Of a stretch of DNA of 10,445 bases, positions 775-10,445 are shown piece by piece. Source of the DNA: Gemmatimonadaceae bacterium. GTDB lineage: Bacteria > Gemmatimonadota > Gemmatimonadetes > Gemmatimonadales > Gemmatimonadaceae. The stretch is taken from contig JADGGM010000044.1 in NCBI GenBank assembly GCA_019689955.1, forward strand, positions 1 to 10,445, read 5' to 3'. The notes beneath the pieces are model-generated. The model did not search any database and had not been told where the DNA came from. It worked only from the letters and a program-made list of their open reading frames with translations. Made by a program: the position numbers and the translations under genes. The number at the start of each line of letters is the position of its first letter. The first letter of the stretch is position 1.

Positions 775-1718
775 CCACGCGCGCGGACCGGGCCGCGCCC
801 ACGCCCTCGCTCGCGCATCGCGTGGAGTACGGCGCGCTCCGAACCGCGATCGGCGCGCTCGGCGTGCTCCGGTGGGAGCGGGCCGTGCGGGCGGGGGCGC
901 GCATCGGCGCGCTCGGCTACGCCCCGTTCCGCGTGCGGCGCCGCGTGGTCGAGCGGCAGATCGCCGCGGCGTTCCCGGAGCTCGACCCCGCGCGCGTGGC
1001 CACCATTGCCCGCGGCGCGTTCGAGCACCTGGGGCGCATCGCCGTGGAGACCGCGCTCCTCTCGCGCATCGGGCGGGCCGAAGTGCTGGGGCTCGTGGAA
1101 GGCGTCGACGGGTGGGACCTCTTCGAGCGGCTGCACGCAGAGGGGCGCGGGCTCATCCTCGTCACCGGGCACCTCGGGAACTGGGAGGTGGGGGGCGCGT
1201 ACGTCGCCGCGCGCGGGCTCCCCATCGACGCGGTGGCGCGCCGGATGGGGAACCCCCTCTTCGACGCGTACCTCACGCGCACCCGCTCTCGCCTCGGGAT
1301 GGCCGTCGTGCCCGACCAGGACGCCGTGCGCCGCACCCCGCGCGCGCTGGCGCAGGGGCGGGTCGTGGCGTTCGTCGCCGACCAGGCGGGGCTCACGCTC
1401 TCGTCGAGCTACATCCCCTTCTTCGGCCGCCCCGCGAAGACCCCGCGCGGCCCCGCGGTGTTCGCGCTCCGGTTCGGCGCGCCGCTCGTCTTCGGCGTCG
1501 CCGTGCGGCAGCCGGCGGGGACGTACCGGATCACGTTCGAGGAGATCCCCGTGCGCGACACCGGGGACCGTGAGGGGGACGTGGACCGCGTGCTCGAGGC
1601 GTACACGCGCACCCTGGAGCGGTGGGTGCGTCGGGTGCCGGAGCAGTATTTCTGGCATCACCGGCGGTGGAAGCGGCAACCCCCCGACACACCGCCGGAG
1701 CTGCGCGACCCCACGTGA
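768..1718 (+). CDS. LpxL/HtrB-family lipid A-type lysophospholipid acyltransferase
   Basis: A 316-residue protein of the LPLAT family that moves a fatty acyl chain from acyl-ACP onto a lipid A precursor or other glycolipid at the inner membrane. The catalytic HX4(D/E) motif is clear: His135 in GHLGNWE with Glu140. Other family blocks follow: VADQAG (203-208), the FFGRPAKTPRGPA segment (218-230), and the C-terminal PEQYFWHHRRWK (291-302). Length fits the family (about 300). An N-terminal amphipathic/membrane-associated helix lies around 20-55. The start is GTG at 768, overlapping the glycosyltransferase stop by 7 bases; the open frame runs further upstream but there it only shadows the glycosyltransferase. 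No clear Shine-Dalgarno is visible, so translational coupling is likely. Exact acyl donor and acceptor are unknown; lipid A is the best guess in a Gram-negative cell. Confidence 0.9.
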   Translation: MVATRADRAAPTPSLAHRVEYGALRTAIGALGVLRWERAVRAGARIGALGYAPFRVRRRVVERQIAAAFPELDPARVATIARGAFEHLGRIAVETALLSRIGRAEVLGLVEGVDGWDLFERLHAEGRGLILVTGHLGNWEVGGAYVAARGLPIDAVARRMGNPLFDAYLTRTRSRLGMAVVPDQDAVRRTPRALAQGRVVAFVADQAGLTLSSSYIPFFGRPAKTPRGPAVFALRFGAPLVFGVAVRQPAGTYRITFEEIPVRDTGDREGDVDRVLEAYTRTLERWVRRVPEQYFWHHRRWKRQPPDTPPELRDPT

Positions 1719-1990
1719 GCGGCGGGCGGGCACACCCGGAGCGCTTCGTCTCCGCGTCGGAGCTCGCCGAGTACGCGTACTGCCGGCGCGCGTGGTGGCT
1801 GCGCGCCGTGCGCGGCGCCACGTCGGCGGAGCAGGGGACGCGGTTCGGCGACGGCCACCGCGCCCACGCGCGCCACGGCGCCGGGCTCCGGTGGGCGCGC
1901 GTGGCGCAGCGCCTCGCCTGGGCCGCGGCGCTGGCGGCGCTCGTCGCCGCGCTCGCCGCGCTGGCCGCGACGCTCGGGCTCCTCCGGTGA
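1715..1990 (+). CDS. Cas4/Dna2-like nuclease, N-terminal chain with membrane helix
   Basis: A 91-residue protein matching only the N-terminal part of a Cas4/Dna2-like (DUF83-type) nuclease. SASELAEYAYCRRAWWLR (13-30) holds the first cluster cysteine (Cys23) in the typical Y-x-Y-C-x-R-x-W/F context, and GTRFGDGHRAH (41-51) holds the conserved His region (His48 or His51) that helps bind metal. From about 66 to 88 it is an Ala/Leu-rich membrane helix, then it stops. The catalytic D...EVK residues and the other three cysteines are missing and lie in the next gene. Start is GTG at 1715, overlapping the acyltransferase stop by 4 bases (GTGA); its own stop overlaps the next GTG in the same way. Arginines before the helix put the N-terminus in the cytoplasm. 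I infer that it works only as a partner of the following chain. Confidence 0.75.
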   Translation: MSGGRAHPERFVSASELAEYAYCRRAWWLRAVRGATSAEQGTRFGDGHRAHARHGAGLRWARVAQRLAWAAALAALVAALAALAATLGLLR

Positions 1991-2499
1991 CGACGGCCGT
2001 TCTCCTCGCCCTCGCGGCGCTCGCGCTCGCGGTGCTGAGCCTCGCGCTCCGGCGCCGCGCCCGGCTCCCCGGCCGGGTCGTGGCCAGCGATGTGGGGGGC
2101 GCGCCGCCCGTGCGCCTGCTCCGCTCCGCGCACTACGGCCTCTCGGGGAAGCCCGACTACCTGCTCGAGGAGCGCGGGCGCATCGTGCCGGTGGAGGTGA
2201 AGCCCACCCGCCGCGCCACGCGCCCCTGGCTCCGCGACGTGGTGCAGCTCGCCGCGTACTGCCTCCTCCTCAGCGAGAGCGAACCGCGCTTCGCCGGCTA
2301 TGGCTATTTGCGGTACGCGCACCATACTTTTCGCATCGACTTCACCGCATCGCTGAGAGACGAGTTGCTGCGCACCCTCGCCGCGCTCCGCGCCGACCTC
2401 ACGGCCGCCGACGTCGACCCCAACCACCACGACCCCCGCCGGTGCGCGCGCTGCGCGCTCGTCACCGTGTGCGGGAAGGTGGTGACGGGGGCATCGTGA
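1987..2499 (+). CDS. Cas4/Dna2-like PD-(D/E)XK nuclease, catalytic chain with membrane helix
   Basis: A 170-residue protein. An N-terminal membrane helix (about 4-21) is followed by LRRRAR, which by the positive-inside rule places the rest in the cytoplasm. The PD-(D/E)XK core reads GKPDYLL (Asp57), VPVEVKP (Glu70, Lys72) and QLAAYCLLL (Gln87, Tyr91), the last being the RecB/Cas4 QxxxY motif. Three cysteines near the end, Cys153, Cys156 and Cys162 in CARCALVTVC, match the C-terminal ligands of the Cas4/AddB-type 4Fe-4S cluster; the fourth is supplied by the preceding chain. Expected activity is metal-dependent single-strand DNA exonuclease or endonuclease. Start is GTG at 1987, overlapping the upstream stop (GTGA). 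The frame is open far upstream, but translated there it is Arg/Ala/Gly noise. No cas1, cas2 or CRISPR array is in the window, so this is a solo Cas4 relative. Confidence 0.85.
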   Translation: MTTAVLLALAALALAVLSLALRRRARLPGRVVASDVGGAPPVRLLRSAHYGLSGKPDYLLEERGRIVPVEVKPTRRATRPWLRDVVQLAAYCLLLSESEPRFAGYGYLRYAHHTFRIDFTASLRDELLRTLAALRADLTAADVDPNHHDPRRCARCALVTVCGKVVTGAS

Positions 2500-3374
2500 C
2501 GCGTCTCCTCTGGGCGCGCCTGCGCGGCGACTCGCGCGCGGTGATCGGGATGGCGGTCGTCGCCCTCCTCATCGCGCTCGCGCTCGCGGCGCCGCTGATC
2601 GCGCGCTACGACCCCACGGCGATCGACCTCGCGCACCAGTTCGAGCGCCCGTCGGCGGCCCACTGGATGGGGACGGACTTCCAGGGGCGCGACGTGTGGG
2701 CGCGGCTCGTGTACGGGGCGCGGGTCTCGCTCGCGGTGGGGTTCATCTCGCAGTCGATCGCGCTCACGCTCGGCGTGCTGCTCGGCCTCGTCGCGGGGTA
2801 CTACGGCCGATGGGTCGACGAGACGGTGATGCGCCTCGCCGACGTGACGCTCGCCTTCCCGACGCTCCTCCTCCTGATCGCCATGGTGGCGGCGCTCGAG
2901 CCGTCGCTCACGACGGTGTTCGTGACGATCGGCGTGGTGGGATGGGCGGGGATGGCGCGCCTGGTACGCGGGCAGGTGCTCGTGACGCGGCAGCTCGAGT
3001 TCGTGCACGCCGCGCGCGCGCTCGGCGCCACGGACCGGCGCATCCTCGCGCGCCACGTCCTCCCCAACGTGATCGCCCCGGTGGTGATCGCGGCGACGCT
3101 CGGCGTGGCCGGCGCGATCATGGCCGAGGCGGCGCTCTCGTTCCTCGGCCTCGGCGTGCAGCCCCCGACGCCGAGCTGGGGGTCGATGATCTCCGACGGA
3201 CGCGACCTGTTCCAGCTCCGCAACGCGCCGTGGACGTCGGTGTTCCCCGGGCTCGCGATCGGCGCCGCGGTGCTCGGCTTCAACCTCCTCGGCGACGCGC
3301 TCCGCGACGTGCTCGACCCGCGCACGCTCCTGGGGCCCGACGCGCGCGCCGCGCACGAGCGGGACGCTCCCTGA
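2496..3374 (+). CDS. dppC: DppC/OppC-type ABC transporter permease
   Basis: A 292-residue inner-membrane permease of the binding-protein-dependent peptide (dipeptide/oligopeptide/nickel) type. It has the short N-terminal tail with helix 1 at about 16-36, the family block HWMGTDFQGRDVWARLVYGAR (56-76), further helices around 80-102, 118-134, 138-158, 198-220 and 248-266, and the EAA loop EFVHAARALGA...LPN (169-191) that contacts the ATPase. The C-terminal segment ALSFLGLGVQPPTPSWG is highly typical of DppC/OppC. Start is GTG at 2496, overlapping the nuclease stop by 4 bases, with a G-rich stretch (2487-2491) just upstream as a possible ribosome site. The frame opens at 2442, but the earlier residues overlap the nuclease cluster cysteines. 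Neither the DppB-type partner permease, nor ATPases, nor a binding protein are in the window; they must be elsewhere if the transporter is functional. Substrate unknown. Confidence 0.92.
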   Translation: MTRLLWARLRGDSRAVIGMAVVALLIALALAAPLIARYDPTAIDLAHQFERPSAAHWMGTDFQGRDVWARLVYGARVSLAVGFISQSIALTLGVLLGLVAGYYGRWVDETVMRLADVTLAFPTLLLLIAMVAALEPSLTTVFVTIGVVGWAGMARLVRGQVLVTRQLEFVHAARALGATDRRILARHVLPNVIAPVVIAATLGVAGAIMAEAALSFLGLGVQPPTPSWGSMISDGRDLFQLRNAPWTSVFPGLAIGAAVLGFNLLGDALRDVLDPRTLLGPDARAAHERDAP

Positions 3375-4909: not shown

Positions 4910-5611
4910 CTATGCAGTACCGAACCGGCACGTGCCGCGCACGAGCGCTGTGGCATTCGCGGCGTCCGTCTCTGCGCGCTCGTTCAGGCCGCGGAGCAGC
5001 GCCCCGCGCGGCGTGAGCTCGATCGTCGTGACGCTCGCGTAGTCGATCGGCTGCGCCATCGCGTCGGCGGGCGGCCACGCGAGGCAGTGCGCGAGCGCGG
5101 CGCGGATGCTCCCGGCGTGCAGCACGACGATGCGCGCGTTCGCCTGCGCGGTGCCGAGCACCCGAGTTGCGGCGGTCACGCTGTCGCGCATCTCGTCGAT
5201 CCACCCCCCCACCCGGCGCACGAGATCGAGGAACGACTCGCCCTCCGGCGGCGCGAACGTCACCCACTCTCGCGTCCATCGCTCCACGCGCGCCGGATCC
5301 TCCCGCCCGAGCTCGTCCCACGATCGATTCTCCCACGCACCGAAGGAGATCTCCCGGAGCCGCGCGTCGCGCACGATGGTGCACGGCCGTTCGGGCCACC
5401 CGCCGCGGACGAGCGACTCGGCGGTCTCGACCGCGCGCCGGAGATCGCTCGCCACCACGACCGGCGGCGGAGCCACGCGCGCCGCCAGGAAGGCGCCAAG
5501 CCGTGCCGCCGCATCCCGCCCGGCCGGCGTCAGCGCAGCGTCAGTGTGCCCGATGCAGTGGCCCGGTGGATGTTCCGATGCGCCGTGGCGCACGAGGTAC
5601 AGTCTCACCAT
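4910..5611 (-). CDS. cobC: Alpha-ribazole phosphatase-like histidine phosphatase
   Basis: A 233-residue phosphoglycerate-mutase-like histidine phosphatase. LVRHG (6-10) carries the phosphorylated His9 and Arg8; SDLRRAVETA (55-64) the second Arg region; LREISFGAWE (85-94) the acid residue Glu87 and the FGxWE block typical of CobC; and VLHAGSIRA (163-171) the second active-site His165. In this operon it most likely removes the phosphate from alpha-ribazole 5'-phosphate or adenosylcobalamin 5'-phosphate, the last step of nucleotide loop assembly. It is the last gene of the operon. The start is ATG at 5611 (7-base overlap with cobS) or the adjacent GTG at 5608 (GTGA, 4-base overlap). The open frame runs on past 5611 inside cobS but is a shadow there. 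The histidine phosphatase family is broad, so the substrate rests on the context. Confidence 0.88.
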   Translation of the reverse strand: MVRLYLVRHGASEHPPGHCIGHTDAALTPAGRDAAARLGAFLAARVAPPPVVVASDLRRAVETAESLVRGGWPERPCTIVRDARLREISFGAWENRSWDELGREDPARVERWTREWVTFAPPEGESFLDLVRRVGGWIDEMRDSVTAATRVLGTAQANARIVVLHAGSIRAALAHCLAWPPADAMAQPIDYASVTTIELTPRGALLRGLNERAETDAANATALVRGTCRFGTA

Positions 5612-6405
5612 GCGAGGTGGACCCCGATCACGTCGAGGTGCGCCGCCGCCACGAGGTACGTCGCGACCTCCACGAGCACGACCGTCGCGCCCAGGCAGTC
5701 CCCCGTCACGCCGCCGATCCGCCGCCGATAGAAGCGCCCGCTCAACCACACGAGGAGCATCGCCACGGGCACCGCGATCAGCGCGCGCCCGCGGAGCGTG
5801 ATGCCGGCCGCCGCGAACGCGACCGCCGAACCGCCGGCGACGCGCGCGGGCGTGACGTCGTTCGCGAATGCGCTCCCGGTGCCCCCCTCGGCGCGGGCAT
5901 AGGAGTGCCGCCAGAGGAGAGGGAGGCTCGACCACCGCGCCAGCGCGTGCGCCGCGATCAACGTCCGCACCACCGCCCCCGTCCCCGCATCGGCGATCGC
6001 GAGCAGCGCCACGAGCCGCGCGGCGATCGTCACGACGAGCGCGAGCGCTCCGTACGAGCCGACGCGGCTGTCCTTCATGATCGTGAGCACCTGCTCGCGC
6101 GTCCACCCGCCGCCGAAGCCGTCGGCCACGTCGGCCAGGGCGTCCTCGTGCAGCGCCCCGGTCGCCCAGATCGCGCCGACGATGGCGAGCGTGACCGCGA
6201 CCGGGGCGGGCCAGAGCGCGCGCGCCCCCGCGTAGAGCGCCCCCGCCCACGCGCCCACGATGATCCCGACCGCGGGGAAGTACGGCATGGACCGCGCGAG
6301 ATCCCCCGCGTCGTGGCCGACCCACCGGGGGGACGGCATGCGCGTGAGGAACGAGAGCGCGACGCACAGCAGCCGCAGGGGCGTCGTCCGCGCGGCCCCG
6401 GCCAT
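5605..6405 (-). CDS. cobS: Adenosylcobinamide-GDP ribazoletransferase (cobalamin synthase)
   Basis: A 266-residue polytopic inner-membrane protein that joins adenosylcobinamide-GDP with alpha-ribazole (phosphate), releasing GMP. The N-terminal FLTRMPSP and MPYFPAVGIIVG blocks (19-51) are typical. The catalytic, acid-rich loop ALHEDALADVADGFGGG (84-100) is followed by IMKDSRVGSYG (109-119), and GGVTGDCLGA (231-240) is the C-terminal signature. About six hydrophobic helices lie between these. Length is in the family range (about 250-270). The start is ATG at 6405, sharing one base with the cobT stop (TGATG); a GTG at 6408 directly before it is also possible. The product is the substrate of CobC, encoded just downstream. 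Confidence 0.95.
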   Translation of the reverse strand: MAGAARTTPLRLLCVALSFLTRMPSPRWVGHDAGDLARSMPYFPAVGIIVGAWAGALYAGARALWPAPVAVTLAIVGAIWATGALHEDALADVADGFGGGWTREQVLTIMKDSRVGSYGALALVVTIAARLVALLAIADAGTGAVVRTLIAAHALARWSSLPLLWRHSYARAEGGTGSAFANDVTPARVAGGSAVAFAAAGITLRGRALIAVPVAMLLVWLSGRFYRRRIGGVTGDCLGATVVLVEVATYLVAAAHLDVIGVHLAW

Positions 6406-7457
6406 CACTCCACTCTCCCCGACACGCCCGCGCTCTCGAACGTCGCCATGTCCGTGAGGATGCGCGCTGCGCTCCGGACGAGCGGGATCGCGCACGCGGC
6501 GCCGGAACCTTCGCCGAGTCGCATGTCGAGGTCGAGCAGCGGCTCGGCGCCGAGCGCGCGGAGCGCGAGGCCGTGGCCGCGCTCGGCCGAACGGTGCGCG
6601 CACACGATCGCATCGCGCAGCGGCGCGTGCGGGTCCAGGTACATCGCCGCGAGCACCGCCACGGTGGAGATGAAGCCGTCGACGATCACCGCGATCCCGA
6701 GTCGCGCCGCCTCGAGCGCCGCGCCCGCGATCGCCGCGAGCTCGAGCCCGCCCAGCGCGGCGAAGCGCGCGGCCGGGTCGTGGAGCACGGCCGCGTGCCG
6801 ACGGAGCGCGCGGTCCACCACCGCGCGCTTGTGCTCCAGCGTGGCATCGCTCACCCCGGTGCCGCGTCCCACCGTGGCCGAGGGCGAGTCGCCGGTGGTC
6901 GCGGAGAGGAGCGCCGCGGCGGCGGTCGTGTTGCCGATCCCCATCTCGCCCAGCCCGAGCGCGCGCACGCCGTCCTGTGCCGCCCGTCGCGCCGCGCCGC
7001 GCCCGACGAGCAACGCGGCCTCCAGCTCGGCGTGCGTCATCGCCGGCTCCGCCGCGAGGTTGCGCGTACCGCGGCGCACCTTCGCGTGGACGATCCCGTC
7101 CAGCCCGGCCAGGTCCGCATCCACGCCGACATCCACCACCTCCACGTCGGCGCCGTTCGCGCGCGCGAGCACGGTCACCGCCGCGCCGCCGCGGGCGAAG
7201 TTGCGCATCATCTCGGCCGTGACCGCGGCCGGGTACGCGCTCACCCCTTCCGCCGCCACGCCGTGGTCCGCGCCGAACACCACGACGCGCGCGCGGTCGA
7301 CCACCGGCGCGGTCGTGCGCTGCAGGAGCGCGAGCTGCAGCGCGAGCGACTCCAGGCGCCCCAGCGAGCCGGGCGGCTTGGTCTTCGCGTCGAGCGCGCG
7401 CTGGACCATCTCGCGCGTGAGCTCCGTGCGGGTGCCCGCCGGCTGCACGGTGCTCAC
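6405..7457 (-). CDS. cobT: Nicotinate-nucleotide--dimethylbenzimidazole phosphoribosyltransferase
   Basis: A 350-residue cytoplasmic enzyme that moves phosphoribose from nicotinate mononucleotide to the lower-ligand base, giving alpha-ribazole phosphate for CobS. Signatures: KTKPPGSLGRLE (25-36), VFGADHGVAAEGVSAYP (60-76), GLGEMGIGNTT (168-178) with Glu171, the TVGRGTGV loop (195-202), and LLDLDMRLGEGSGA (307-320) with Glu316, the counterpart of the catalytic Glu317 of the Salmonella enzyme. The length is close to the Salmonella protein. Start is GTG at 7457, overlapping the cobO stop by 4 bases (GTGA); the frame is open far upstream but only as a shadow of cobO. No bluB gene for 5,6-dimethylbenzimidazole synthesis is in the window, so the source of the base is unknown. 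Confidence 0.96.
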   Translation of the reverse strand: MSTVQPAGTRTELTREMVQRALDAKTKPPGSLGRLESLALQLALLQRTTAPVVDRARVVVFGADHGVAAEGVSAYPAAVTAEMMRNFARGGAAVTVLARANGADVEVVDVGVDADLAGLDGIVHAKVRRGTRNLAAEPAMTHAELEAALLVGRGAARRAAQDGVRALGLGEMGIGNTTAAAALLSATTGDSPSATVGRGTGVSDATLEHKRAVVDRALRRHAAVLHDPAARFAALGGLELAAIAGAALEAARLGIAVIVDGFISTVAVLAAMYLDPHAPLRDAIVCAHRSAERGHGLALRALGAEPLLDLDMRLGEGSGAACAIPLVRSAARILTDMATFESAGVSGRVE

Positions 7458-8113
7458 AGCTCGATCCCCGCTTGCGCGCCGAGCCCGCGATCGCGGTACG
7501 GGTGCTTGATCGCGCGCATCTCGGTCACGAGGTCCGCGGCATCCACGAGCGCCTGCGGCGCGTTGCGCCCCGTGACGACGACGTGCGTGCCCGCCGGCCG
7601 GGCGCGGATGGCGTCGAGGACCTCGCTCGTGGAGAGCCAGCCGTAGTTGAGGGGGTAGGTCAGCTCGTCGAGGATGAGCACGTCGTACGCGCCGTTGAGC
7701 AGTGCGTCGCGGCACGTCGCCCACCCCGTGGCGGCGAGGGCGCGGTCGGCCTCGATGTTCTCGGAGAGCCAGGTGAAGCCGTCGCCGAGGGGGGTGATCG
7801 AGACGCCGAGCCGCTCGGCGGCGATGTGCTCGCCGTAGCGCGCCTCGGTGTTCTTGATGAACTGGTAGACCCCGACCGTCATCCCGCGTCCGGTCGCGCG
7901 CAGGAGGAGGCCGAGTGCGGCGGTCGTCTTCCCCTTGCCGTCGCCGGTGTTGACGATCAACAGCCCGTGGCGCCGCTCGCGCGGCGGGACGCGGTACGGG
8001 CCCGGGCGCTTCTGCTTCGGCCGTGGGCCGCGACGGTCCGGGCGACACAGTGGGAGCTCGGGCGGAGCGGTGGGATCGGTCACGTGATCGGGTTCGGTTG
8101 GTTCGGTCATCAT
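7454..8113 (-). CDS. cobO: Corrinoid adenosyltransferase, CobA/CobO/BtuR type
   Basis: A 219-residue ATP:co(I)rrinoid adenosyltransferase that puts the 5'-deoxyadenosyl group on cobalt. The P-loop TGDGKGKTT (56-64) is the family's unusual form; VGVYQFIK (80-87) follows; GDGFTW (110-115) matches the ATGFTW block; ILDELTYPLNYGW (147-159) is the Walker B-like acid segment; VVTGRNAP (179-186) follows; and KHPYRDRGLGAQAGIE closes the protein. Compared with E. coli BtuR the N-terminus before the P-loop is about 20 residues longer, rich in Pro and Arg, and looks disordered. Start is ATG at 8113, sharing ATGA with the stop of the decarboxylase gene; the second ATG at 8110 is an alternative. It supplies adenosylated corrinoid to CbiB and later enzymes. 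Confidence 0.96.
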   Translation of the reverse strand: MMTEPTEPDHVTDPTAPPELPLCRPDRRGPRPKQKRPGPYRVPPRERRHGLLIVNTGDGKGKTTAALGLLLRATGRGMTVGVYQFIKNTEARYGEHIAAERLGVSITPLGDGFTWLSENIEADRALAATGWATCRDALLNGAYDVLILDELTYPLNYGWLSTSEVLDAIRARPAGTHVVVTGRNAPQALVDAADLVTEMRAIKHPYRDRGLGAQAGIEL

Positions 8114-9330
8114 GGTGTAGCTGGCGGAAGGGCGAGGGTGCGGTGAGGGGAGGAAGCCGGCGGCGCGGCGTCGCGGTGCATCACGGCGCAGAGCGCCGCC
8201 GCGAGGGCGTCGTTCTCGGCGGGCGTGCGCGCGGCGATGCGCACGTGCTCCGGAAGCCCGAACGACGTCGCATCGCGCACGCCGATCGCGTGCTCGGCGA
8301 GGAGCCGACGTTGCACACGCGACGCGTCGCCGACCTCGATGAGGAGGAGATGGGTGTCGCTCGCGACCGTCGGCACGCCGGCCGCGCGCAGCGTCTCGGC
8401 GAGCCGCGCGCGCTCGCTGCGCACGCGCGCCGTCGTCTCGGCGACGTGGGCGATCCCCGCATCGGAGAGCGCCGCTTCGGCCGCGGCCTGTGCGTAGGCC
8501 GACGCGGCCCACGGCGCGCGTGCCCGTTCGACGGCGTGGATGAGCGGCGCCGGCCCGACGAGGAACCCCGCCCGAACGCCGGCCAGCGCGTGATCCTTCG
8601 TGATCGAGCGGAGGTGCAGCACCGCCGGATGCCCGGGGAGCGCCGGGGTCCCGAGCGGCGCCGCGTCGAACGCGTCGTACGACTGATCGAGCACGAGCAG
8701 CGCGCCGCTCGCGGCGCAGGCGTCGGCGAGGCGGCTCAGCACGTCGCGCGGCACGCGCGCGCCGGTGGGGTTGTTGGGCGCGCACACGAACACGATCCGC
8801 GGCCGCGCGTCGGCGACGGCGTCGATGAGCGTCGCGATCGCCATCGCGTGGCGGTCGTTCGCCGCGACGGTGTGAACGCGCGCCCCGCACAGCGCGGCCG
8901 CGCGCGCGTACTCGCCGTACGCCGGCGCCGGCACGAGCACCCGGTCGCGGCGGCGCACGAAGGCGGTGGCGATCGCCTGCAGCAGCTCCGACGCCCCCGC
9001 GCCGAAGGCGATCTCCGTCGGCGCCCGGCCCCAGCGTGCCGCCGCCGCGCGCCGCGCCGCCGTGCTCCGCGGGTCCGGGTAGTGGTCGGGCGCGACACGA
9101 CTGAGCGCATCGAGCACTACGGGGGCGGGGCCGAACGCGTTCACGGAGACGCTGAAGTCGATCAACGGACGCACGGGGGACCCGTCAGCCGCCCCGCGCT
9201 CGCCGGTGACGCCGTCCCAGCTGCCGCCGTGCATCGCGGGCGCGACACGAAGGACGTCGCGCCGCGGCCGCACGCGCGCTGCGTGCCGCGCGCCTGTCGC
9301 GTCGGGCGTGCGCCGCTCGCGTGCCGTCAT
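8110..9330 (-). CDS. cobD: L-threonine-O-3-phosphate decarboxylase (CobD of Salmonella; CobC of Pseudomonas naming)
   Basis: A 406-residue PLP enzyme of the class I/II histidinol-phosphate aminotransferase type. MHGGSW (33-38) matches the characteristic start block of these decarboxylases; FSVSVNAFGP (59-68) follows; APNNPTG (184-190) binds substrate and PLP, Asp215 and Tyr218 in VLDQSYD contact the cofactor, Lys245 in SITKDHALAGVR forms the Schiff base, and Arg364 in VRIAAR binds carboxylate. It would make (R)-1-amino-2-propanol O-2-phosphate, the linker used by CbiB, whose gene is directly upstream. The start at ATG 9330 shares ATGA with the cbiB stop and has GGAG about 10 bases upstream; it adds 32 Arg-rich residues before the usual MHGG. 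ATG 9234 is the alternative, giving 374 residues. A histidinol-phosphate aminotransferase is less likely given the cob context. Confidence 0.9.
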   Translation of the reverse strand: MTARERRTPDATGARHAARVRPRRDVLRVAPAMHGGSWDGVTGERGAADGSPVRPLIDFSVSVNAFGPAPVVLDALSRVAPDHYPDPRSTAARRAAAARWGRAPTEIAFGAGASELLQAIATAFVRRRDRVLVPAPAYGEYARAAALCGARVHTVAANDRHAMAIATLIDAVADARPRIVFVCAPNNPTGARVPRDVLSRLADACAASGALLVLDQSYDAFDAAPLGTPALPGHPAVLHLRSITKDHALAGVRAGFLVGPAPLIHAVERARAPWAASAYAQAAAEAALSDAGIAHVAETTARVRSERARLAETLRAAGVPTVASDTHLLLIEVGDASRVQRRLLAEHAIGVRDATSFGLPEHVRIAARTPAENDALAAALCAVMHRDAAPPASSPHRTLALPPATP

Positions 9331-10229
9331 GCTGCGATGACTCCGGCGCCGATCGTCGCCGCCGCGGCGACGATGCGCCGCGCGCGCGCGATGTCGGCCG
9401 CGCGCGGCGGGCGGCCGCCGGGGTTGAGCACGTACACCAGCGCGCGGCCGCTCCGCTTGGTGAGCCGGCATCCGAGCGCGCCGGCCATCGCGGCCATGGG
9501 CCAGCCGGCGTTGGGGCTCGGCGTCCGATGCGCATCGCGCACCGCGCACGCCAGGGCGCCAACGAAGGAGCCCCGCCCCGCGCGCGCCGCCGCGCAGATC
9601 GCGAGCGCGGTGAGGCGCGCAGGGATGAGGTTCAGGAGATCGTCCGCGCGCGCGGCCGCCTTGCCGAGGTATTCCAGCTCCGGCGTCCGGTAGCCGATCA
9701 TGGCATCGGCGGTGTTGACGAAGCGGTAGACGTACGCCCCCGCCAGTCCGCCGAGCCGCTCGTACACGAGCGGCGCGAGCAGCCCATCGCTGAGGTTCTC
9801 GGCCAGCGACTCGATCGTCGCGCCGGCCACTTCGGAAGGCGCGAGCGTGCGCGTGTCACGCGAGACGAGGTGCCGGGCGAGGAGCTGCCGTGCACGCTGT
9901 AGGTGCCCCCGCGCCAGCGCCCGCTCGACCGCGCGCCCCGCGGCGAGCAGCGCGCGCAGCGAAAGCGCCGGTTTGAGCGCGAGGCCGCGGACGCAGGGGC
10001 GCGCCGCCGGCGGCAGCGCGCGGACGAGATGCTCCGCCGCGTGCGCGATCCCCGCCGTGACCGCTGCTCCCGCCGCGAGCCCGAGCGCCCCGATCGCCAG
10101 CGCCTCGAGCGACGGCGCGCCCTTCGCGCGGGCACGGAGGGGCGCGATCCACCGCCCCATGGCGACGGTCGGATGGACCCGCGCGGGCGGCTCGCCGAGC
10201 AGGACGTCCGCGCCGAGCGCGACCACCAC
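9327..10229 (-). CDS. cbiB: Adenosylcobinamide-phosphate synthase
   Basis: A 300-residue inner-membrane protein that amidates adenosylcobyric acid with aminopropanol phosphate. Signatures: GADVLLGEPPARVHPTVAMG (6-25), ESLAENLSDGLLAPLVY (140-156), FVNTADAMIGY (170-180) with YLGKAAARADDLLNLIPARL (187-206), and SPNAGWPMAAMAGALG (238-253). Several hydrophobic helices, including one around 44-64 and another near 204-217, place it in the membrane. The chosen start is GTG at 10229: GGAGG at 10240-10236 is 6 bases upstream, a clear Shine-Dalgarno, and the LGEPP block follows at the usual short distance. GTG 10226 is nearly as good. Sequence upstream of it in the same frame is Arg/Val-rich noise overlapping the preceding gene. 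Gene naming varies: this protein is also called CobD in the Pseudomonas scheme. Confidence 0.95.
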   Translation of the reverse strand: MVVALGADVLLGEPPARVHPTVAMGRWIAPLRARAKGAPSLEALAIGALGLAAGAAVTAGIAHAAEHLVRALPPAARPCVRGLALKPALSLRALLAAGRAVERALARGHLQRARQLLARHLVSRDTRTLAPSEVAGATIESLAENLSDGLLAPLVYERLGGLAGAYVYRFVNTADAMIGYRTPELEYLGKAAARADDLLNLIPARLTALAICAAARAGRGSFVGALACAVRDAHRTPSPNAGWPMAAMAGALGCRLTKRSGRALVYVLNPGGRPPRAADIARARRIVAAAATIGAGVIAA

Positions 10230-10230
10230 G

Positions 10231-10240
10231 CTCCCCCTCC
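10231..10240 (-). promoter_or_regulatory. Strong Shine-Dalgarno for cbiB
   Basis: On the minus strand this reads GGAGGGGGAG, 1 to 6 bases before the two adjacent GTG codons at 10229 and 10226. It is the only strong ribosome site seen in the cob operon; the downstream genes rely on stop/start overlaps. It decides the cbiB start. Confidence 0.7.
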
Positions 10241-10267
10241 GCCCACGCGCCGCGGTCACACCCACGC

Positions 10268-10445
10268 TCAGTGCCGGAACGAGCGGATGTCGAGCGCCGA
10301 CGGCCCCACGCCGACCGACACGCTGTCCGCCAGCTCGAACGTCGAGGCGTGGTACACGAACATGTACGGCGCCAACCCCTGCGCCGCGCTGCCGAAGAAG
10401 AGCTGGTACAGCGCGCCGTTCGACGCGACCCTCCCGGAGCACCCC
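10268..10445 (-). CDS. Unknown protein, C-terminal 58 residues
   Basis: The frame enters from the window edge and stops with TGA at 10270-10268. The 58 visible residues run from GCSGRVASNGALYQLFFG to SALDIRSFRH. Every one of the 58 sense codons ends in G or C, which in this genome is strong evidence of real coding, although no start lies in the window. I do not recognise a family. The alternation of hydrophobic and polar residues (for example ALYQLFFG and YMFVYHASTFELADSVSVGVG) suggests beta strands, so a periplasmic, outer-membrane or lipoprotein origin is possible but not shown. It lies 38 bases upstream of cbiB in the same direction and may be in the same transcript; the gap is too short for a riboswitch. 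Confidence 0.7.
   Translation of the reverse strand, partial: GCSGRVASNGALYQLFFGSAAQGLAPYMFVYHASTFELADSVSVGVGPSALDIRSFRH

Follow-up and report, generated by a model that had tools for sequence, protein, structure and literature searches.

Two adjacent genes of a Gemmatimonadaceae contig probably encode the halves of one membrane-anchored Cas4-like nuclease

The window, that is, the whole stretch of 10445 bases analysed here, is one contig of the 751-contig draft genome of a Gemmatimonadaceae bacterium (G000). It carries two overlapping genes, termed chain A and chain B, between which the residues of a Cas4-like nuclease are divided, and each chain has one predicted membrane helix. The open reading frames (ORFs) and the motif locations in both chains, first proposed from the DNA letters and their translations (hereafter the sequence-only reading), are borne out, and the features are as follows.

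1715-1990, + strand: chain A gene, with a GTG start and a translation of 91 amino acids (aa); Cas4-like N-terminal half and C-terminal membrane helix (predicted).
1781-1783, + strand: codon of Cys23 (YAYCRRAW) of chain A, predicted first iron-sulfur (Fe-S) ligand, present in 91 of 91 A homologues.
1865-1867, + strand: codon of His51 (GxxxH) of chain A, present in 91 of 91 A homologues.
1928-1984, + strand: predicted membrane helix of chain A, the most hydrophobic 19-residue window (residues 72-90; Kyte-Doolittle 2.42).
1987-1990, + strand: GTGA in the sequence, overlap of the chain A end with the chain B start codon.
1987-2499, + strand: chain B gene, with a GTG start and 170 aa; N-terminal membrane helix (predicted) and catalytic Cas4-like C-terminal half.
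1993-2049, + strand: predicted membrane helix of chain B, the most hydrophobic 19-residue window (residues 3-21; Kyte-Doolittle 2.63).
2155-2202, + strand: PD-(D/E)XK active site of chain B, with D57 (2155-2157), E70 (2194-2196) and K72 (2200-2202).
2245-2259, + strand: Q87xxxY91 motif of chain B.
2443-2472, + strand: C153, C156 and C162 (CARCALVTVC) of chain B, three further predicted Fe-S ligands.

The Cas4 catalytic set (D, ExK and an upstream His) is found only when A and B are taken together, with His51 of chain A acting, we assume, as the metal-binding His of Cas4-type active sites. Likewise, the four cysteines of Cas4, one N-terminal and three C-terminal, are present and divided between the two chains, so that in the split pair they do not lie on one polypeptide.

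The division recurs among homologues. A protein search with chain A gave 91 homologues of 67-111 aa among 463 candidates, and Cys23, R25, A26, W27, W28, L29, G47 and H51 are identical in all of them. The search with chain B scored 195 homologues among 7998 candidates; residue counts refer to the 120 that were listed, all of which are 200 aa or shorter, even though sequences as long as 1.75 times the query (about 297 aa) were admitted. D57, E70, K72, Q87, Y91, C153, C156 and C162 are identical in all 120, and D, E, K, Q and Y are also invariant in the 29 rows of a wider alignment. The best match of chain A (P0123) differs from it at one internal residue and has the same end point; the longest contig of its source is 944 bases, compared with 10445 for the window. 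Close and distant relatives are thus split at the same point, which answers the question, raised with the sequence-only reading, of where relatives are divided. In 95 additional loci, a single ORF matched both halves, and this was a one-chain Cas4 (L107). The comparison of sequences confirms that the split is real, conserved in two bacterial groups and no sequencing mistake.

Profiles place the two chains in one family. PDDEXK_1 aligns with chain A over profile positions 2-44 (E 0.017, under the curated cut-off) and with chain B over positions 88-246 (E 6.4e-10; 39.8 bits against a cut-off of 22). TIGR00372 gave 16.3 bits for chain A (positions 2-43) and 61.5 bits for chain B (61-179), both below its cut-off of 65, and Cas_Cas4 (PF01930) matched chain B only (positions 53-158; 34 bits against a cut-off of 22.7). 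Since A and B match successive segments, the chains cover consecutive parts of one profile. Against solved structures, the B profile matched only Cas4 chains at E <= 0.01, namely 8d3l (E 6.5e-8), 4r5q, 7mi4 and 4ic1; the A profile found 8d3l (E 0.068) and 4r5q (E 0.09) weakly, its Cys and His falling on those of the Cas4 chains. A structure model of A plus B is one complete Cas4 fold, which agrees with the earlier proposal that an intact domain takes both chains, and suggests that together they would make up a single Cas4 fold.

The membrane helices, which the sequence-only reading had overlooked, are equally regular. With a Kyte-Doolittle window of at least 1.6 as the call, a C-terminal hydrophobic helix is present in 90 of 91 A homologues and an N-terminal one in all 120 listed B homologues; in a model of B alone it spans residues 2-25. 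Lysine plus arginine is higher before the helix than after it in 86 of 91 A homologues, and higher after the helix than before it in all 120 B homologues. According to the positive-inside rule, positively charged flanks of membrane helices tend to face the cytoplasm; by this bias both nuclease halves would be cytoplasmic, and the split would fall in the turn of a membrane hairpin that lies outside.

Two single ORFs, L182 (353 aa) and L214 (330 aa), found in G433 and G682, join A and B, and in both the membrane helix of A is followed by a short turn and then by that of B. As judged from their sequences, these natural fusions serve as a Rosetta stone for the A-B partnership and display the hairpin directly. 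In a tree made by a quick method from the B half only (L187, L188 and L214 left out; L084, L076, L189 and L086 flagged as long rows), a starred branch (99) sets 12 one-chain Cas4 rows apart from 66 split-family rows (65 split, one fused). L182 lies within the split group beside a split sister (support 98), and the split rows of Gemmatimonadota form one group with weak support (58). Long branches (L180 and three more) meet the Cas4 rows, and the split therefore likely, though not provenly, arose once. Two divergent sets were also seen. In a Chloroflexota branch (L180, L181, L184 and L186) the ExK reads EQK and QxxxY is altered, with the cysteines and both hydrophobic helices kept. A divergent Gemmatimonadota pair (L084 and L085, from G313 and G210) has lost the Tyr of QxxxY and its A was missed by the profile; inspection by eye of another frame of L084 gave a candidate A.

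To survey the distribution, one genome per species was scanned with a single pattern from the A alignment, [AV][YF]C[RH]RAWW. It found 67 loci, a count that gives a lower bound for the phylum range because the pattern misses divergent A chains such as L170-L189. All but four are titled as Chloroflexota groups, two Promineifilum loci being taken by us as Chloroflexota; the four are two Gemmatimonadaceae, 'bacterium LB3_1' and one metagenome-assembled genome (MAG) of a Thermoplasmata archaeon, possibly misbinned. The A-B pair on a contig with the Thermoplasmata label (L076) has a long branch and may be there by transfer or misbinning. With six loci from Gemmatimonadota genomes, the window included, there are 73 entries; L004 and L081 represent a single locus, as L057 and L079 apparently do. 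A and B overlap or are separated by at most 30 bases in 36 entries, by 31-400 bases in 12 and by more than 400 bases in nine. B is outside the fetched stretch in 14 (in 10 of which the stretch continues for 1.2 kb or more beyond A), A is cut off by the contig end in one, and one (L077) scored as one ORF that is frame-disrupted. L077 was rejected as a genuine one-ORF form: the membrane helix and stop of A can be read in another frame, and B is also broken. In the nine widely spaced entries (L030, L047, L054, L055, L059, L062, L070, L071 and L074) A is separated from B by a gene belonging to a single cluster; the one that was scanned (L062) is a YkuD L,D-transpeptidase. For 12 genomes without B at the fetched A locus, three of these loci (L039, L045 and L053) ending within 333 bases past A, B was found elsewhere in 11, the exception being G404. 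A viral origin was considered and rejected: viral contigs gave 39 pattern matches and no relatives by tblastn.

Among 395 genomes of the window's phylum, 13 match the B profile. Judged by ORF length and position, seven (G000, G022, G079, G130, G133, G210 and G313) are of the split type and the other six read as one-chain Cas4-like; the pair was not found in five other genomes of the window's genus. G406 is an Anaerolineae genome and its phylum is therefore Chloroflexota, of which 301 genomes were searched. A was found at E <= 0.001 in 87. The B profile matched 125, of which 87 with E <= 2.7e-23 were counted as split-type; this cut was our own choice, and the other 38 were left unclassed individually, most of those listed resembling one-chain Cas4 in that their match starts only near position 42. 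Both chains occur in 80 genomes, A only in seven and B only in seven (Fisher p 1e-55, a value that overstates independence because the genomes are related). Four of the A-only genomes (G497, G625, G692 and G706) have matches in frames of 475-960 aa that are not chain A, and two (G449 and G486) have split pairs with B below the cut; among the B-only genomes, G433 and G682 carry the natural fusions, and G534, G630, G689 and G703 have a sub-threshold A. The genes are less than 400 bases apart in 62 of the 80 pairs, and 400-1500 bases apart in nine; in two the distance is 0.89 and 2.8 Mb on a single contig, and in seven, all from draft genomes, A and B are on separate contigs.

We consider it probable, with good confidence, that two single-pass inner-membrane proteins of opposite topology form one Cas4-like nuclease. 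Chain A would have its N-terminal part in the cytoplasm and end in a membrane helix, and chain B would begin with a membrane helix and have a cytoplasmic catalytic part; the two helices would pair as a split hairpin. The N-terminal helices of A, with the Cys and the metal-binding His, would dock in the cytoplasm on the PD-(D/E)XK core and cysteine tail of B. The active site would be completed between the subunits, as would, most likely, one [4Fe-4S] cluster with one Cys from A and three from B. What this explanation joins, namely the split, the invariant residues, the hydrophobic helices, the co-occurrence, the unlinked gene pairs and the natural fusions, is read from sequence, and with the model of the fold a cluster-sharing heterodimer appears to be the best explanation of the anatomy. 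We infer that the separate chains associate, bind the cluster and cut DNA at the membrane. The two membrane helices may matter as much as the cluster for the cohesion of the pair. Tentatively, and with rather less than even expectation, the single [4Fe-4S] cluster could be an intersubunit joint whose loss, under oxidative stress or iron starvation, frees the halves and switches the nuclease off.

Several observations weigh against the heterodimer. G404 has A and no detectable B, and G675 has B and no A at E <= 1. For the A profile, a designed helical protein (8qag, E 0.014) outscores the Cas4 chains by way of the hydrophobic helix. The modelled A+B chain is a read-through fusion from L067, not the chains of the window, and fusion favours contact; the model of B alone comes from another species and another alignment, so that its comparison with the A+B model is not strictly controlled. 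Both natural fusions are without the catalytic Asp (PAY and PTY, compared with PDY), and some branches may therefore not be active nucleases. Finally, the gene neighbourhood yields no single functional link.

The loss of the Asp leads to the first alternative, in which the pair, in some branches at least, is a Cas4 fold serving as a membrane Fe-S sensor or scaffold and not as a nuclease. The Asp is lost in the Chloroflexota forms L182, L183, L185, L187 and L214, the Tyr of QxxxY is absent from L084, and no nucleic-acid gene was found among the close neighbours of the window pair; however, the five catalytic and motif residues do not vary in the 120 listed B chains or in the wider alignment, and we regard this alternative as unlikely. 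Another possibility is that B alone is the working nuclease and A an unrelated small membrane protein or regulator. B does contain D, ExK and Q/Y, and its model retains the PD-(D/E)XK core; yet A keeps the Cas4 Cys and His in every homologue, aligns weakly with the N-terminal half of Cas4, co-occurs with B, is joined to it in the natural fusions of two genomes and, in the model, makes the fold complete, which leaves this possibility quite improbable. Programmed frameshifting or stop read-through at the overlap, giving a single polypeptide, would suit the four-base GTGA or ATGA overlap that is possible at many loci (a start codon giving it is available also in L004, L051, L057, L079, L082 and others). 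It is rejected, with very little probability left to it, because frames, gaps and linkage vary: the frame relation of A and B is not constant, gaps reach 1.1 kb with a gene between, some pairs are on different contigs, and by eye no slippery heptamer precedes the overlap. A frameshift of sequencing or assembly, or gene decay, splitting an ordinary one-chain Cas4 might be suspected in so fragmented a draft genome, but has next to no chance, given that 91 A and 120 listed B homologues, from Chloroflexota and Gemmatimonadota, show the same division, with B in any of the three frames (0, 1 or 2) with respect to A, behind an intervening gene or at a separate locus. The one-chain Cas4 encoded in G000 shows no hydrophobic helices like those that flank the split.

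In the window, the pair lies between two further genes.

768-1718, + strand: LpxL-type acyltransferase gene (PF03279, E 6.2e-42), adjoining chain A upstream with a stop/start GTGA overlap.
2496-3374, + strand: OppC-type ABC permease gene, adjoining chain B downstream, with a GTGA overlap at the end of B.

The GTGA overlaps of LpxL/A, A/B and B/OppC suggest, from the sequence, that these genes form one translationally coupled operon. An LpxL homologue is upstream of A also in L051, L057 and L079, and an OppC homologue, 78% identical, is directly 3' of B in L057 and L079. These close Gemmatimonadaceae (L057/L079) retain the arrangement GT, LpxL, A, B, OppC, class-V aminotransferase; L051, whose contig ends in B, does so in part. 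The minus-strand ORFs at 4910-10445 presumably belong to a cobalamin biosynthesis cluster (CobC, CobS, CobT, CobO and CobD types). In G022, which belongs to another genus of the family, the pair precedes a gene that, by eye, reads like HolA, and in one other branch (L194) an HD-domain gene is upstream. Many of the scanned Anaerolineae loci have the order SSB, DUF3467, translin-like, A, B, NAD kinase, TPR, RecN; this neighbourhood lies among L022-L078, for example in L025, L058, L066 and L067. Among the 67 pattern-scan loci, a translin-like gene occurs in 37, NAD kinase in 19, SSB in 16 and RecN in 14, and the translin-like product matches AfTRAX (E 8e-35). One MAG (JAJRVT) has two A loci on two contigs (L068 and L073), at each of which A follows a translin-like gene and precedes an ABC-type gene. 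A DNA-repair operon, or a functional link to translin/TRAX, was considered and rejected on the wider sample. Translin (bacterial TRAX-like) is present in 167 of the 301 Chloroflexota genomes, with or without the pair, stands directly beside A in at least seven (G404, G422, G506, G586, G594, G618 and G693), and was found in none of the seven Gemmatimonadota genomes that have the pair. No neighbour is common to all the groups seen, so context does not settle the role. Our best guess, a doubtful one, is that the pair processes DNA, single-stranded or incoming, at the inner membrane.

If loss of the cluster does free the halves, the pair would be a redox-controlled, cluster-stapled split enzyme, retained in Chloroflexota and Gemmatimonadota even where its genes are unlinked. 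A natural cut in the turn of a membrane hairpin, with two genes in two phyla, would offer a handle on the role of the Fe-S cluster in Cas4-, AddB- and Exo5-type nucleases, as the cluster can be probed as a joint between two chains. The pair also bears on annotation. Where named, B chains are mostly 'CRISPR-associated exonuclease Cas4' or Cas4-domain protein, A chains are mostly 'hypothetical protein', and the Cas4 name is on four of 91 A matches, so that one half may be scored in surveys as a complete enzyme. Outside CRISPR, a Cas4 relative bound to the membrane would suggest an unstudied role in DNA processing there, at the inner membrane.

The literature searched, which lacks most subscription papers, yielded no account of a split or membrane-bound Cas4, and the pair is, as far as that literature goes, undescribed. 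To that extent, the statement of the sequence-only reading that the layout is no standard Cas4 form is supported. To our knowledge, AdnA/AddB, Dna2, Exo5 and MGME1 have the nuclease domain within one chain and no membrane hairpin. Like solo-Cas4 (Phylogenomics of Cas4 family nucleases, 2017; PMC5704561), the split pair is a Cas4-family system outside cas loci, here with GT, LpxL, OppC and class-V aminotransferase genes as neighbours. The main text of that study gives every Cas4 member four conserved cysteines, describes solo-Cas4 as 'present and monophyletic' in many Chloroflexi, and has no occurrence of 'split' or 'transmembrane'; the Chloroflexi solo-Cas4 of that text may be chain B. In the window's genome, Cas1 matches are on contigs C557 and C175 and none is on the window contig (C536), Cas2 not having been searched. 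A one-chain Cas4-Cas1 fusion is encoded on C557 (L001 and L009; 613-aa frame), and the split pair is thus an additional system and no replacement. The Argonaute-associated Cas4 family protein ACE1 (9iab, 9iac) is one chain of 266-269 residues, compared with two chains here. In contrast to the Cas4 of CRISPR systems, both the type I-C form (8d3l) and the Cas4-Cas1 fusion (7mi4), this locus encodes two polypeptides, with two predicted membrane helices.
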